Source of the DNA: a virus
Virus record (IMG/VR): IMGVR_UViG_3300037485_000134
Span: 1 to 22,605 of that record
DNA: 22,605 nt
Reading direction: 5' to 3' (one strand)
Below are positions 10,755 to 18,840 of this stretch, in pieces. The position numbers and the translations under genes are program-made. The notes beneath the pieces were generated by a model that had not been told where the DNA came from, ran no database searches, and saw only the letters and a program-made list of their open reading frames with translations. Numbering within the stretch: the first letter of the stretch is position 1; the number at the start of each line of letters is the position of its first letter.

Positions 10755-11176
10755 TGGCATACGCAAACAACGGTGAATTTAATGTGCTTTATCCTACAAG
10801 AAGGAAGGTAGCTAATGTGCTCAAGAAAATAATCTTAGATGAGAATTTAATTGATACCAGAACTCTATATGATTCAATACGTATCAATGCCAAAGTCAGT
10901 ACTGAGGGTAATTTACGCATTCAAATTGTAGCGGCTTATTACTTTGGATTCTTAAACAATGGTACAATAACAATACTACCCTTTAATTTGGTGCGTAAGT
11001 TCAATGCTAAACTTGAGCAAGAAGGACTTATCAATGAAATGTATGGTCAATACATAGCTTATGTAGCTAATAAATTCCCTATCTTAGAACTTGGTGGTTT
11101 ACTTCGCCAAAAGGTAGTAGTGATTTATGACTTTGAGCCATTGTTTGGTGAGTTCTTTAACACATTAGATGTTTAA
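10754..11176 (+). CDS. HK97 gp10-like neck/tail-completion protein (tentative)
   Basis: A 140-residue protein. Residues 34-68 show the pattern DTRTLYDSIRINAKV, a short strand with LRIQIVAAYYF, and then FLNNGT. This resembles the signature of HK97 gp10-type head-tail joining proteins (a Leu/Ser-rich helix, strands, and an aromatic-x-G-T turn), although the usual Glu before GT is Asn here. It is the last gene of the rightward tail block. Its final 12 bases overlap the end of the leftward gene at 11165, so the two transcripts converge with no terminator between them. The neck assignment is an inference from a short pattern. Confidence 0.45.
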   Translation: MAYANNGEFNVLYPTRRKVANVLKKIILDENLIDTRTLYDSIRINAKVSTEGNLRIQIVAAYYFGFLNNGTITILPFNLVRKFNAKLEQEGLINEMYGQYIAYVANKFPILELGGLLRQKVVVIYDFEPLFGEFFNTLDV

Positions 11177-11896
11177 TTCTTTCTTCATGGCTAACATATT
11201 GAAGGTCATGATTAGTGGTAGGTTGGTGACCTCTTCAAATTTAGTGAGGTCTTCATTGCATAGGGAGTAGATTAATCTCTCCCACCCCCACTTCATTTCA
11301 CTCTTTTTGAGCTGTAAGTCTTTTGACTCCTGAGATGTGGTAGGTTTATCCTCTTCCTCATCACCATCACTGTCATCATGAAATAAGTTGCCGTATGTCT
11401 CCATGAAGTTTTCCCTAAAAGCTATGAACTCAGGTACAATACCATAGATATCATTGATGCAATAGTCTTCAAAGAGCTCAAATCTTTGTCTAGGTGAGAA
11501 GTTGTAAGGCTCAAAGACAGTCACACCCCATTCATTGGTAGATTTTTGCCTATACATAATGGATGCAATGTGACCTATGTGCTTATTGTAGTCTTTTGAA
11601 AAGTAAAATTCAAGGTCAATGTACTCACCAATGGTTAACTTATCTAGTGGCTTGTAGTGATAGTCATCAATTTGGTGCTTGTATTGCTTAGATGGTTCTG
11701 AGTTCACAAATTTAATCTCATTAATCATAGCAGTCACTTCCTCAATGTCAAGGTCTTCAAGTTCCTCAGAGCTAACATCCGCTAAAATAGCAAGTATTTC
11801 TATCTCTCTATTGAAGACCTCAGTGATTGTGTACAGCTCTCTAATCTCTTTGAACTGCAATACATCAATCTCACTCCAATATTTCGGTAGGTGCAT
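11165..11896 (-). CDS. Leftward gene, paralogue of upstream gene; possible tail-assembly-chaperone-like protein
   Basis: A 243-residue protein read leftward from ATG 11896. A TTG at 11929 would add 11 residues. The first 130 residues follow the same order of motifs as the neighbouring 181-residue protein: a QF-x-x-I helix near the start, an IEILAILADV helix, an acidic stretch LEDLDIEEV, IDDYHYKPLDKLTIGEY, and KHIGHIASIMYRQKS. About 100 extra residues follow, including an acidic linker DDSDGDEEEDK and a Trp-containing helix. The gene starts 26 bases before the stop of the upstream gene, in the +1 frame. A shorter protein followed by a longer overlapping partner recalls tail-assembly chaperone pairs, but here both have their own N-domain. 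Function unproven. Confidence 0.5.
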   Translation of the reverse strand: MHLPKYWSEIDVLQFKEIRELYTITEVFNREIEILAILADVSSEELEDLDIEEVTAMINEIKFVNSEPSKQYKHQIDDYHYKPLDKLTIGEYIDLEFYFSKDYNKHIGHIASIMYRQKSTNEWGVTVFEPYNFSPRQRFELFEDYCINDIYGIVPEFIAFRENFMETYGNLFHDDSDGDEEEDKPTTSQESKDLQLKKSEMKWGWERLIYSLCNEDLTKFEEVTNLPLIMTFNMLAMKKELNI

Positions 11897-12416
11897 CCTT
11901 AGGTATGTATTTAGATAACTTCTGACCAATCTCCACTAGGTAAGGCACAGCTATTTCAGCTTTCAATTCTCTAATTAATTTAGCTTTCAGCTTGATGTGA
12001 GCATCTGAGTAGTGCTCTACCTTAGTCAAGTCAGTACGCTTGAATAAAACTGCTAACATCTCAGAGATATAACCTTTATGTCTCGAGTGCATGATTTTTT
12101 CAATGTGCTTAGTGTCTTTTACTGAGAGCTTGAATCTGTCTTCAAATGCCACATAAGTATAGCCATCAATCTCAAATGAGCTAATCAAATCAGGCTTATC
12201 ACCTAAGTTATTAAACTCTTTTACTATCTCTTTGAACTCTTCAATCTCAACTGCATCCCACTCAATAGCTGGTACTCCTAAGAATTCAAACACTTGCAAA
12301 TGTTTGTCAATAGCATCCAGCTCAGTGTCAGCATGGATAGTTGTGATTGTTTCAAATTGCTGTACACTCAACTCATTCAGTTGGTTAGGTACGTCAAAGC
12401 CTAAAATATTTACCAT
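11871..12416 (-). CDS. Leftward gene; possible tail-assembly-chaperone-like protein
   Basis: A 181-residue, helix-rich, acidic protein without signal or membrane segments, and the first gene of the only leftward operon in the window. Motifs in order: LSVQQFETITTI, LQVFEFLGV, VEIEEFKEIVKEF, FEIDGYTYVAFEDRFKLSVK, and GYISEMLAVLFKRTDL. The same series recurs in the downstream leftward gene, indicating duplication. Tail chaperones in siphoviruses are small, acidic, helical and made as an overlapping pair, which fits, but they normally precede the tape measure on the same strand. A TATATTTG box on this strand lies 17 bases before the ATG. The alternative is an unrelated conserved phage protein. 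Confidence 0.5.
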   Translation of the reverse strand: MVNILGFDVPNQLNELSVQQFETITTIHADTELDAIDKHLQVFEFLGVPAIEWDAVEIEEFKEIVKEFNNLGDKPDLISSFEIDGYTYVAFEDRFKLSVKDTKHIEKIMHSRHKGYISEMLAVLFKRTDLTKVEHYSDAHIKLKAKLIRELKAEIAVPYLVEIGQKLSKYIPKDAPTEILE

Positions 12417-15032: not shown

Positions 15033-15368
15033 ATGATATATCTTGAGAAAGACTCAACTAATAGCTTTGTGCTGACCTTAACAGAAGTCACTACACTATC
15101 AAATGCTTACTATTTGTTTGAGTTTGAAGATGAGTTTAATACAACACCCAACCCTATCTATTGGCAAGGTGCTGACACTTCATTGTGGCCTTCAAGATTT
15201 AACCTATTCACTATTGAAGACCCTGCAGATATTGACTTTATAAAAGGTCAGTACAGATACAAGGTTTATGAAAGCTCATCTCCTACATTAGATCCTACTG
15301 GATTGACAATGATTGAAGAGGGAAGGCTTGTAGTGGCTGGTGCAATTATTAACTCAATTTATGACTAA
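15033..15368 (+). CDS. Small structural protein of the portal block, unknown function
   Basis: A 111-residue protein starting with MIYLEKDSTNSFVLTLTEVT, followed by alternating strands (AYYLFEFEDEF, GQYRYKVYESS) and a closing LTMIEEGRLVVAG. This reads as a compact beta-sandwich domain of the kind found in small phage head or tail accessory proteins. It has no signal peptide or membrane segment. It is the first gene after copy 4 of the promoter-like motif and is coupled to the portal by TAATG. I do not recognise a named family; a minor virion component is inferred from its neighbours. Confidence 0.5.
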   Translation: MIYLEKDSTNSFVLTLTEVTTLSNAYYLFEFEDEFNTTPNPIYWQGADTSLWPSRFNLFTIEDPADIDFIKGQYRYKVYESSSPTLDPTGLTMIEEGRLVVAGAIINSIYD

Positions 15369-16681
15369 TGGCTTGGTATAACAGATTCATAGGCACTAAG
15401 CCTCAGACAACAACACAAGTAGTAGAAGGCTATCAGTCATTCTCTACACCATTCGGTAGAGTAGGTGATGCTAACTTATCACTTCCTTATGTTAATGGTA
15501 GATATCAGATAGCTGGCTACATTCCATTTGGTCAGGATAACATGTTCCCTGAGCTATTAAATCAGCTCTACTATACATCACCTTTGCATGGTGCAATTGT
15601 GGATTTTAAAACCAACTCAGTTGTTGGTGGAGGATACGTTCTTAAGAGTGAAGGAATGACCAATGAGGACAAGCTCAAGCTCTACACATTTGAGAAGAAA
15701 ATAAAACTTGGCAAAGTAGAAAGAGCAATAGCTCAGCAGTTGACTGTACACCATCGAGTTTACTTTAAATTGTGTTACAATGCTAAGAGAGAGCTGTACA
15801 AGATATACAATGTATCACCTGAGAAGGTAAGAATTGCTAGAGACAAAGTCACTTACTTCTTATGTGATGACTGGTCAGCTAGAATTGACGTAACATCTAT
15901 AAAAAAATATCATCCTACTAACTCAGACCTTGAGCAGTTGTATGTTTACGAAATTATGACACTAGGTCAGGAGTGGTATCCATTGCCACAGTACACTAGT
16001 GCTCTTAACTTTGCTTTCCTATCAGGTGAGTTGAGCTACTTTGCAAAATCTAACATTCAAAATAGTGTGTTTCCTTCATTTGCAATGATGTTCCCTAAGA
16101 GACCACAATCAGAGGAGGAGAAATCAATGATTAAACACACAATTGATAGGTTAAAAGGTGCGGCTAATGCTGGTAAGGCAGTTGCATTCTTTGCTAACTC
16201 AGCTGACCAATTACCAAAAATAGAATCTTTACCTACAAATGGCAATGATAAGCTGTTTCACGAGGCCTCAGCTTTGAACACTGAACAAATTTGCTTTGCT
16301 CACACAATAGACCCTATCCTTATGGGTGTCAGAACTACTGGCTCACTAGGTGGAGGAGCTGATATCAAGCAAGCCTATGTCATCTTTGAGAAAAATGTGG
16401 TCATGCCATTAAGAACTCAGGTAGAAGAGATAGTTAATGAGCTTTTAGAGATTGCTAAGATACCAGGTGAATATACAATCAACAACTTCCAGATCATCAA
16501 TGAGACTATTGTAGAGATTGAAGGTGATGCAAGTAAAACAGCTGATGCTATCAACTCACTTAGTCCATTGGTAGCTACAAAAGTACTTAATGCAATGACT
16601 CCTAATGAAGTTCGCTCACTTGCATCTTTGCCTCCTATTGAAGGTGGTGATGTTATACCAATTGAAACACCTGCACTATGA
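15368..16681 (+). CDS. Portal protein
   Basis: A 437-residue protein, the length usual for siphovirus portals, which form the dodecameric DNA entry ring at one capsid vertex. Portal-like features are YIPFGQDNMFPELLNQLYYT near residue 52 followed by PLHGAIVDFKTNSVVGGGYV, a helix-turn region with EKVRIARDKVTYFL, and a long stem-like segment at 225-265. Then comes FAHTIDPILMGVRTTGSLGG with a C-terminal helix (NVVMPLRTQVEEIVNELLEI), the typical end of PBSX/HK97-type portals. It lies far from the terminase (about 14 kb), unlike most phages, and is coupled by ATGA to the connector-like gene. Confidence 0.85.
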   Translation: MAWYNRFIGTKPQTTTQVVEGYQSFSTPFGRVGDANLSLPYVNGRYQIAGYIPFGQDNMFPELLNQLYYTSPLHGAIVDFKTNSVVGGGYVLKSEGMTNEDKLKLYTFEKKIKLGKVERAIAQQLTVHHRVYFKLCYNAKRELYKIYNVSPEKVRIARDKVTYFLCDDWSARIDVTSIKKYHPTNSDLEQLYVYEIMTLGQEWYPLPQYTSALNFAFLSGELSYFAKSNIQNSVFPSFAMMFPKRPQSEEEKSMIKHTIDRLKGAANAGKAVAFFANSADQLPKIESLPTNGNDKLFHEASALNTEQICFAHTIDPILMGVRTTGSLGGGADIKQAYVIFEKNVVMPLRTQVEEIVNELLEIAKIPGEYTINNFQIINETIVEIEGDASKTADAINSLSPLVATKVLNAMTPNEVRSLASLPPIEGGDVIPIETPAL

Positions 16682-17734: not shown

Positions 17735-17805
17735 TGGAATTTATCATAGGAGCTGTATGTGGAGTGATGGTAGGAATTATTGCAATCGTATATTATGAAT
17801 TATAA
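17731..17805 (+). CDS. 24-residue membrane micropeptide in the lysis cassette
   Basis: ATG 17731 overlaps the holin stop (ATGA), and the TAA at 17803-17805 lies inside the endolysin gene. The peptide is almost entirely one hydrophobic helix, MMEFIIGAVCGVMVGIIAIV plus YYEL, with glycine spacing as in oligomerising membrane helices. Its precise fit between two coupled genes argues for translation. A lysis-timing or holin-partner role is inferred. It is short enough that chance cannot be excluded. Confidence 0.5.
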   Translation: MMEFIIGAVCGVMVGIIAIVYYEL

Positions 17806-18310
17806 CTGGCTAACAGAAGAGACTGGTCCTAAAATCTTAGTGCAAGCTGTCAAGTTGATAGGTACTAAGGAGATAGTAGGCAAGCAACACAACCCTATTA
17901 TATTAGACTGGGCTAGACAGCTTAGACTTAAAGTCTATACAAATGATGAGATCCCATGGTGTGGTCTATTCATTGGCATTTGTGCATTCAAGGCTGGAGT
18001 TCAGGTAGTAGATGGTCCATTGTGGGCTTTGAACTGGGCTAAGTATGGCACTTCAGTAGATCAACCTATGCTGGGTGATGTATTAACATTTAAAAGAGAT
18101 GGCGGTGGTCACGTTGGTATCTATGTTGGTGAGGATAGAACTCACTACCATGTACTAGGTGGCAACCAAAACAACCAGGTGAATGTGATGCGAATTGCTA
18201 AGACTAGATTGCACCAGGCTAGAAGAACTGAGTGGAAAATAGCACAGCCATCCAATGTGAGAGTAGTAAATTTATCAAGTCAAGGAGTAATAAGTCAAAA
18301 CGAAGCATAA
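17795..18310 (+). CDS. Endolysin, CHAP/NlpC-P60-type cysteine peptidase (TIGR02594-like)
   Basis: A 171-residue enzyme predicted to cut peptidoglycan during lysis. The start is taken as ATG 17795 inside the micropeptide gene; a TTG at 17780 would add five residues without motif support. Catalytic residues appear in order: Cys56 in DEIPWCGLFIG, His106 in GGGHVGIYVG, and Asn124 in VLGGNQNNQV, the C-H-N arrangement of CHAP-like cysteine amidases or endopeptidases. The segment SVDQPMLGDVLTFKRD before the His is also typical. It lacks a signal peptide, so release depends on the holin-like protein. The next gene begins at its stop (TAATG). Confidence 0.85.
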   Translation: MNYNWLTEETGPKILVQAVKLIGTKEIVGKQHNPIILDWARQLRLKVYTNDEIPWCGLFIGICAFKAGVQVVDGPLWALNWAKYGTSVDQPMLGDVLTFKRDGGGHVGIYVGEDRTHYHVLGGNQNNQVNVMRIAKTRLHQARRTEWKIAQPSNVRVVNLSSQGVISQNEA

Positions 18311-18585
18311 TGAAAGAACCAAAAAAGAAAAAAGACATCAACATCAACATTGATACTAAGAATGTAGATATTAAAGTGACGCGAAAACATGGCGTTACAG
18401 ACGTTAAATTAGATACAGATAAAGTAGATATAGACTTTCATAAAGAAAGTGACTCTAAGAGCCTAAAAATAGATACTGATAAGGTAGATGTACAAGTCAC
18501 CAATGGAGAGGTGAATGTAGATGTTAATGAGCAATCAGGCTTTGTAGGAAAGTTAATAAAATTCTTACTCAGAAGAAAAAAATAG
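18310..18585 (+). CDS. 20-residue-repeat protein with basic amphipathic C-terminus
   Basis: A 91-residue protein begun at ATG 18310, which overlaps the endolysin stop. After a Lys-rich N-terminus it carries three near-identical repeats of pattern DT[KD][NK]VD[IV] at residues 15, 35 and 55, exactly 20 residues apart, built of alternating hydrophobic and polar residues as in a beta-solenoid or stacked beta-hairpins. The C-terminus ends GKLIKFLLRRKK, a short basic amphipathic helix able to touch a membrane. It is the last gene of the late block. Given its position it may act in lysis, for example on the outer membrane, but no family is recognised. Confidence 0.6.
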   Translation: MKEPKKKKDININIDTKNVDIKVTRKHGVTDVKLDTDKVDIDFHKESDSKSLKIDTDKVDVQVTNGEVNVDVNEQSGFVGKLIKFLLRRKK

Positions 18586-18586
18586 T

Positions 18587-18594
18587 TATATTTG
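18587..18594 (+). promoter_or_regulatory. Candidate -7 box TATATTTG for a small RNA
   Basis: TATATTTG matches the Bacteroidota -7 consensus TAnnTTTG and starts one base after the end of the repeat-protein gene. No good -33 TTTG lies at the usual distance. A start near 18599 would make a transcript of about 67 bases up to the T-run at 18660-18666. Confidence 0.4.
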
Positions 18595-18599
18595 TACCG

Positions 18600-18666
18600 C
18601 ATGTATATTGTTTGGTTACAATAACACCTAAGAGGGATGATCTAGTGATAGTTTATCCCTTTTTTT
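18600..18666 (+). ncRNA. Putative two-hairpin small RNA
   Basis: Between a TATATTTG box and a terminator lies a segment that folds into two hairpins. The first is TATTGT (18606-18611) with ACAATA (18618-18623) around TTGGTT, extended by TGT/ACA past one bulged A. The second is the terminator stem at 18633-18660. A linker of six bases joins them. A seven-codon reading frame, MYIVWLQ, runs from 18601 to 18624 across the first hairpin and could be a leader peptide instead. The segment may simply be the 3' end of the late transcript. Confidence 0.4.
18633..18666 (+). terminator. Rho-independent terminator after the late block
   Basis: AGGGATGA (18633-18640) pairs with TTTATCCC plus T (18653-18660), one T-T mismatch follows, and CTA/TAG close a GTGA loop, again a GNRA tetraloop. 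Seven T residues follow at 18660-18666. It ends the lysis-cassette transcript and the putative small RNA. Confidence 0.88.
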
Positions 18667-18676
18667 ATGCAATCAA

Positions 18677-18696
18677 ATGTTAAAATATGTTAAAAT
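18677..18696 (+). repeat. Tandem 10-bp repeat, ATGTTAAAAT x2
   Basis: Two perfect adjacent copies, 18677-18686 and 18687-18696, end one base before the operator-like dyad and two bases before the -33 element of the next promoter. The one-turn spacing would place a bound regulator twice on the same face of the helix. Confidence 0.65.
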
Positions 18697-18714
18697 GTTT
18701 GCATATATGAAAAC
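18697..18714 (+). promoter_or_regulatory. Operator-like dyad between promoter elements
   Basis: GTTTGCATATATGAAAAC is an imperfect palindrome: 16 of 18 bases equal its reverse complement, with the core CATATATG perfect. It covers the -33 box and most of the spacer of the promoter at 18698-18728, the usual place for a repressor site. Confidence 0.5.
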
Positions 18715-18728
18715 AGTTACTAACTTTG
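18698..18728 (+). promoter_or_regulatory. Host-type (Bacteroidota) promoter for the small-gene block
   Basis: TTTG (18698-18701), a 19-base spacer, then TAACTTTG (18721-18728) match the Bacteroidota consensus TTTG-N19-TAnnTTTG. It lies after a terminator and before a run of rightward small genes, with a leader of about 27 bases to the first ATG at 18760. The same architecture and spacer recur at 21878-21908. Confidence 0.7.
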
Positions 18729-18759
18729 TTTCATAATTATTAACACAAAAACAAATAAC

Positions 18760-18840
18760 ATGCAAGGAACAATCATTTACTTATTAGTGCTTTACAGCAT
18801 AGTAGCAACAATCAAAATTTTAACCCTTAAAACTAAATAA
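18760..18840 (+). CDS. 26-residue membrane micropeptide
   Basis: The first reading frame after the promoter at 18698. MQGTIIYLLVLYSIVATIKI followed by LTLKTK forms a single hydrophobic helix with a basic tail. The context AAATAACATGCAA at its start (18753-18765) is repeated exactly at the start of the following gene (18835-18847), which supports real initiation at both. The function is unknown. Small early membrane peptides of phages often target host functions, but nothing specific shows here. Confidence 0.5.
   Translation: MQGTIIYLLVLYSIVATIKILTLKTK

Follow-up and report, generated by a model that had tools for sequence, protein, structure and literature searches.

A conserved small-RNA-type element between the late and early genes of a phage and its predicted antisense role at the first early start codon

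What is encoded in the 80 bases that lie between the late and the early genes of the virus record IMGVR_UViG_3300037485_000134? A sequence-only reading had proposed a trans-acting small RNA, an attenuator with a leader peptide or simply the 3' end of late transcription. We analysed positions 1 to 22,605 of this 22.6-kb record (hereafter, the window) together with related loci (L numbers), and set out below the evidence that the stretch carries a putative small-RNA gene whose product may control the first early gene.

The element and its conservation

The late-type genes end with a lysozyme-like gene and a gene for a 91-aa protein; 3' of the element lie small early-type genes, an HNH nuclease and a DnaA-C-like protein (scoring below cut-off). 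Since six of the nine relatives of the lysozyme in genome_contigs (best, 65% identity) are from Flavobacteriales, to which we take Cruoricaptor to belong, the host of the phage is probably a member of this order. A minus-strand pair of overlapping ORFs (254 and 181 aa; 11165-12416) sits within the plus-strand late block. The features of the window to which we refer are as follows.

104-1096: terminase
15368-16681: portal
17795-18310: CHAP/NlpC-like tail lysozyme or endolysin, with Pfam scores slightly below the cut-offs
18310-18585: 91-aa protein with no family assigned, directly before the small-RNA element
18587-18594, plus strand: TAnnTTTG promoter-type box, TATATTTG; the T after the box is also invariant
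18596-18598, plus strand: variable gap from the box to the RNA body (ACC in the window)
18599-18666, plus strand: predicted antisense small RNA of about 67 nt, with a putative 5' end at 18599
18599-18618, plus strand: antisense stretch, complementary to the early leader and start codon
18601-18624, plus strand: mini-frame MYIVWLQ, read directly
18602-18626, plus strand: weak hairpin 1 with loop UUGGUU, in group 1 only
18630-18666, plus strand: terminator T1, a GTGA-loop hairpin followed by T7; exchangeable
18698-18728, plus strand: early promoter TTTG-N19-TAACTTTG, found by motif script
18740-18763, plus strand: target site, the leader and start codon of the first early gene
18760-18840, plus strand: first early ORF, 26 aa, hydrophobic; the putative repressed gene

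The perfect TAnnTTTG box claimed at the outset is borne out both by the sequence and by a motif script. Taken alone it is weak evidence, because the whole window holds 57 TAnnTTTG matches (36 on the plus and 21 on the minus strand) and has no TTG upstream of the TATATTTG box at a spacing of 17-24. Among 61 close loci, a TTG at spacing 17-23 is absent from 41 and CTTG at spacing 19 is found in 20; the boxes of host AbiF-upstream RNAs (see below) have a TTG partner in just five of 21 cases. The distance from the box to GCAT, the start of the RNA body, is 12 nt in 51 of the close loci and 11 nt in the other 10, with the gap between box and body reading ACC in 27, ACT in 16, AC in 10 and CAC in 8. 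Variation of this kind, in both sequence and length, is what one would expect of a gap separating a promoter box from the start of a transcript. A further promoter-like site, TAACTTTG at 18721 with TTTG at spacing 19, precedes the early genes and is exact in 46 of 61 loci, one more locus having an exact site beside a further match. The tandem ATGTTAAAAT repeat ahead of this promoter (18677-18696), to which relatives have similar sequence, is a possible operator.

The exact 29-nt core of the element occurs once in each of 60 viral contigs. As this set was selected by the core itself, conservation was tested on 55 sequences obtained by way of the adjacent 91-aa protein, through which 62 loci were located. 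Fifty-six of these have the exact core; the other six consist of two truncated loci (L114, L138), two divergent ones (L136, L137) and two with a different layout (L140, L141). The alignment comprises the window and 54 of the 62 loci, these six being excluded along with L090 and L133, which have less than 300 nt upstream. In it, the 28 nt of 18599-18626 form the longest invariant run, followed by runs of 11 nt within the 91-aa gene, of whose third codon positions 27% are invariant, and of 9 nt over the box region (18587-18595). The element is thus conserved above its neighbouring gene, and the region is not a product of chance.

A profile search for divergent relatives (63-71% identity; 80 of 131 kept) extended the comparison. 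In all 20 divergent loci that were read, the box is kept as TAT[AC]TTT[GA], its distance to GCAT is 12 nt with the four intervening nucleotides varying, and a terminator follows. The RNA body is group-specific among them (GCATATCTGTTT, GCATAATTAT, GCATAATTGTTT), beginning GCATATC or GCATAAT; groups 1-3 are defined by these first RNA bases, not by a tree. Relatives accordingly retain the box and the antisense stretch, not the terminator hairpin alone. Judged by this comparison, the element is real, conserved and of small-RNA type.

Its predicted folding agrees with the hairpins first described. The TTGGTT-loop hairpin is present at 18602-18626, yet weak (-4.6 kcal/mol); it is invariant within group 1 and absent from the three divergent relatives that were folded (L136, L137, L080). 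The GTGA-loop terminator is a strong hairpin (18630-18663) with T7 at 18660-18666, found in 50 of 61 loci and replaced by a different hairpin in 11; T1 was not among the predictions of an automated terminator scan of the window. The fold of 18587-18680 has a z of -3.8 against 200 shuffles.

A host counterpart of the RNA was sought and rejected: model R2 had matches at E <= 0.1 in 84 of 299 genomes (the lowest E, 1.3e-6, in one genome), and the six matching loci that were read, out of 10 fetched, are ordinary-looking terminators preceded by an A+T-rich stretch. A 17-nt sub-pattern matched 75 contigs, and none of the 15 new ones, all read, has the box-body-terminator layout.

Complementarity between the RNA and the early gene start

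The antisense hypothesis arose after reading the 20 divergent loci, most of which bear in their early leader, up to the start codon, the complement of the RNA (for example AAAACAGATATG). In the window, RNA nt 1-20 show gapped complementarity to the early leader and its start codon, which lie some 150 nt further downstream on the strand that encodes the RNA. The start codon would be covered by GCAUGU pairing with ACAUGC, and UUGUUU would pair with AAACAA, the predicted energy being -13.6 kcal/mol (p 0.013, or 0.03 under another shuffle). The 26-aa ORF that begins there has no PHROGs match.

The 61 close and 20 divergent loci gave 79 RNA/start-site pairs, 43 of them unique; L216 (cut off) and L225 (no 15-codon ORF) yielded no pair, and L137 is outside the 81 loci because it ends ahead of the early leader. 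Own pairs average -14.66 kcal/mol against -11.12 (sd 0.46) for permuted ones over the 43 unique pairs, lower than all 20000 permutations (lowest -12.91), in a comparison where loci are related and permutations ignore kinship. Mononucleotide shuffles give p < 0.05 in 24/26, 10/10, 3/4 and 3/3 unique pairs of four groups.

In groups 2 and 3 (14 distinct pairs), each of RNA nt 2-11 is paired in 13 or 14 of the 14, with two-sided compensatory changes at nt 6, 7 and 9, and nt 5 is G-C in 14 of 16 group 1 pairs versus A-U in 13 of 14 pairs of groups 2 and 3. This pairing is specific to its register, 136 of 140 cells (97%) being paired in groups 2 and 3 versus 28-53% in ten other registers; for nt 1-6 of group 1 the corresponding values are 118 of 138 versus 7-57%. 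Group 1 pairing is gapped, with nt 7-9 mostly unpaired in strict register, and in the best close relatives, L013 among them, nt 2-20 pair with bulges (-18.9 kcal/mol). The comparison shows that RNA and start site changed together across groups of related phages, and it strongly supports an antisense role.

More distant lineages are consistent with this picture to varying degrees. L256 has 16 contiguous pairs (p 0.001), its second box being devoid of pairing support, and L080 reaches p 0.002; L072, L074, L076 and L078, where GCAT is further from the box, give weaker support (p 0.006-0.036). Convincing pairing is absent at two exceptional loci, L241 (p 0.136) and L391 (p 0.143), and phage Fpv5 has a similar layout with pairing that is not significant (p 0.21). 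An automatic scan of lysozyme-related loci gave 17 candidates with an own mean of -7.4 versus -6.2 permuted, 66 of 5000 permutations being equally low; since the 29-nt slices used had cut some RNAs short, four loci were analysed again manually from a different start.

Raw energy singles out the target less sharply. Ranked against gene starts defined as mechanical ORFs of at least 60 aa, the target is third of 38 starts in the window; it takes first place in 15 of the 48 close loci and in 9 of the 20 divergent ones. A test over 32 window starts placed 18760 fifth (p 0.03, not significant once corrected) and gave p 0.003 for 18842. The first early peptide is of the 26-aa hydrophobic type in at least 50 of 79 loci (the 16 commonest peptides were inspected), the remaining loci having a 48-aa membrane-like or other first early gene. 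Given that the leader complementarity is mostly retained despite these other first genes, selection may be for control of the first start in the early operon.

Proposed mode of action, alternatives and known phage RNAs

Promoter box, terminator and complementarity to an mRNA start each have sequence evidence of their own. We put at about 0.74 the probability that we are dealing with a small phage gene whose product is a ~67-nt antisense RNA covering the start of ORF 18760-18840. Transcription would start behind the TAnnTTTG box, with +1 at about 18599, and stop at the T-run; upstream late transcription may yield the same 3' piece. The RNA would act in trans on the early leader, where pairing would block ribosome binding at the 26-aa hydrophobic ORF, so that the first early gene would be held down once the RNA accumulates. 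In group 1 the antisense stretch would also fold as hairpin 1, whose UUGGUU loop may initiate pairing where the leader has AACCAA, a motif present in 49 of 59 group-1 loci and absent from the window. More speculatively, late transcription could enlarge the RNA pool and so bring about a late-to-early shut-off. Antisense control is directly testable, as the pairing predicts which changes should break it and which should restore it.

The same complementarity would fit equally well a regulation in cis, without a separate RNA, in which read-through of T1 places the stretch and the leader, on one strand and about 150 nt apart, within one long transcript where the stretch hides the early start codon. 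We hold this to be unlikely, as it leaves unexplained both a conserved box at near-fixed spacing and a strong terminator between stretch and leader. A decoy RNA that binds a protein is suggested by the AbiF-type RNAs which relatives carry at the same junction, directly 3' of the RNA body in 11 of 61 loci. That the window RNA is itself such a decoy is very improbable: at gathering score no Rfam family, RF01695 and RF03085 included, matches anywhere in the window, a host-AbiF-RNA model has no window match up to E 5, none of 397 family genomes contains the core (<=3 mismatches), and the covariation with the start site would require a different cause.

The remaining readings are less probable again. 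The element does follow the last late-type gene and has a strong terminator, and to this extent the suggestion of a late 3' end fits; across loci, however, it is the terminator that is swapped while the box and antisense stretch are kept, body and box being the first and third longest invariant runs, and we give little credence to an account that reduces the element to a terminator with functionless sequence. Still less do we credit a site that works as DNA, for instance in phage attachment or as an operator. The 28 invariant base pairs do include an ATTGT-N6-ACAAT dyad, but divergent groups lose the dyad and keep the start-site complementarity; an attachment site was rejected, the 21-nt core having no match in genome_contigs and the full core (<=3 mismatches) occurring in 0/5 and 0/397 genomes. 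The leader peptide can practically be dismissed. MYIVWLQ is found where it was reported, with its ATG and stop, and is probably non-coding: RNAs of the divergent groups (GCATATC/GCATAAT) are without that ATG and hence the frame, and coding-type variation is absent where the frame exists because its DNA is invariant there. Of the options initially raised, the small RNA is the one best supported by these comparisons, through its conserved box and body and its covariation with the target.

Phage antisense RNAs are a known kind, of which the window RNA would be a new variety. The sar RNA of P22 is encoded opposite its target and fully complementary to it. It is described as a small phage antisense RNA that pairs with the ant mRNA and prevents its translation (PMC13397905). 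The window RNA resembles it as a small phage RNA predicted to pair with an mRNA, and differs in lying on its target's own strand about 150 nt away, in its gapped complementarity and in its putative target, a small hydrophobic early ORF. The c4 RNA of P1 and P7 is located upstream of its target on the same strand, has complementarity around the translation start of a neighbouring phage gene and is made from the same transcript as that target. Accounts of c4 (RF01695) present it as a short phage RNA of 77 nt acting on the ant mRNA in trans (PMC12197685) and list it for Proteobacteria and phages (PMC2864571). The window RNA shares this complementarity to the translation start of a neighbouring gene; it differs from c4 in having its own box and terminator and in occurring in other phages. 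Between it and its putative target lie a terminator and a second promoter-like site. If the antisense reading is true, phages of Flavobacteriales-type hosts would have a post-transcriptional early-gene switch, of which literature searches, at the level of listings and abstract openings of open-licence PMC papers, showed no report.

RNA cassettes at the junction and their possible link to AbiF

Further or replacing cassettes are found at the junction in 24 of 61 loci, a count that rests on fixed motifs and scores loci that are cut off as having none. Those discussed here, and a hairpin RNA of host genomes, are:

L191 1564-1599, minus strand: module D, an abiF-like hairpin, also in 13 other records
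L191 1604-1657 (minus strand), L226 6309-6362 (minus strand), L233 6206-6259 (plus strand): module C, a hairpin RNA
L212 5293-5314 (minus strand), L247-L255 and others, 14 contigs in all: module B, an RNA-like cassette of about 135 nt
L268-L292, upstream of Abi_2-type genes: second-type hairpin RNA that has a TAnnTTTG box and often reads AACAGTAC...

Module D matches the abiF model at 22-27.4 bits (cut-off 37) in 14 of 50 records, all 14 beside the core, and lies directly 3' of the antisense body in 11 loci; the abiF-RNA and Abi_2 scans were run on 50 of the 60 contigs, a set with many fragmentary records, and found no Abi_2 protein in these phage sequences. An Rfam search of eight relatives by E-value gave three sub-threshold matches, one being the abiF-like hairpin of L191. 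Above cut-off, an abiF RNA (42.5 bits) was found in one of 299 family genomes, where it precedes a 328-aa protein assigned to the Pfam family Abi_2 (E 4.7e-58), with relatives in 31 of 397 genomes; loop and flank of this host RNA are nearly identical to those of module D.

The second-type hairpin RNA was delimited upstream of 22 of 30 fetched Abi_2-type genes and, at three host loci, has no Rfam family up to E 1. A model built from 18 of these host RNAs recognises module C, at E 1.3e-9 to 6.1e-9, in the three phage loci L191, L226 and L233, and we regard module C as homologous, a putative phage copy of the Flavobacteriaceae AbiF-upstream hairpin RNA without the toxin gene. At host locus L290, C-type and D-type hairpins appear by eye in tandem, as in the phages with modules C and D, Rfam giving no score for the second hairpin. 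Module B, nine of whose 14 contigs are outside the 60 core-bearing ones, has a TAnnTTTG-type box and a terminator stem whose sequence varies while its pairing is kept; the host-RNA model scored it at E 0.0012 to 4.5 and, since unrelated places already reach E 3.5, it is a possible relative only.

The AbiF family has been linked to ancestral Cas13, and the RNA RCd22 is described as neutralising AbiF through direct RNA-protein interaction (PMC12373285). By analogy with RCd22, the host AbiF-upstream RNAs are presumably antitoxins. The window RNA resembles abiF RNA (RF03085) and RCd22 in its box, hairpin and terminator and in the related hairpin at the same junction of relatives, and differs from abiF RNA in lacking a match at the 37-bit gathering cut-off. 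The adjoining cassettes suggest that phages collect RNA antitoxins against AbiF. Tentatively, the junction could be an RNA island in which a constant antisense-RNA gene is joined by exchangeable cassettes, including toxin-free AbiF antitoxin RNAs, and the RNAs with an AbiF-type ending (11 of 61) might serve two ends, phage regulation and neutralisation of a suicide RNase of the host; we consider this possible, with doubt prevailing. Other structured-looking cassettes occur at this or other junctions, namely E (L194, L205, L228, L244), F (L205, L013), G (L246, L254) and a block before B (L249, L254, L255).
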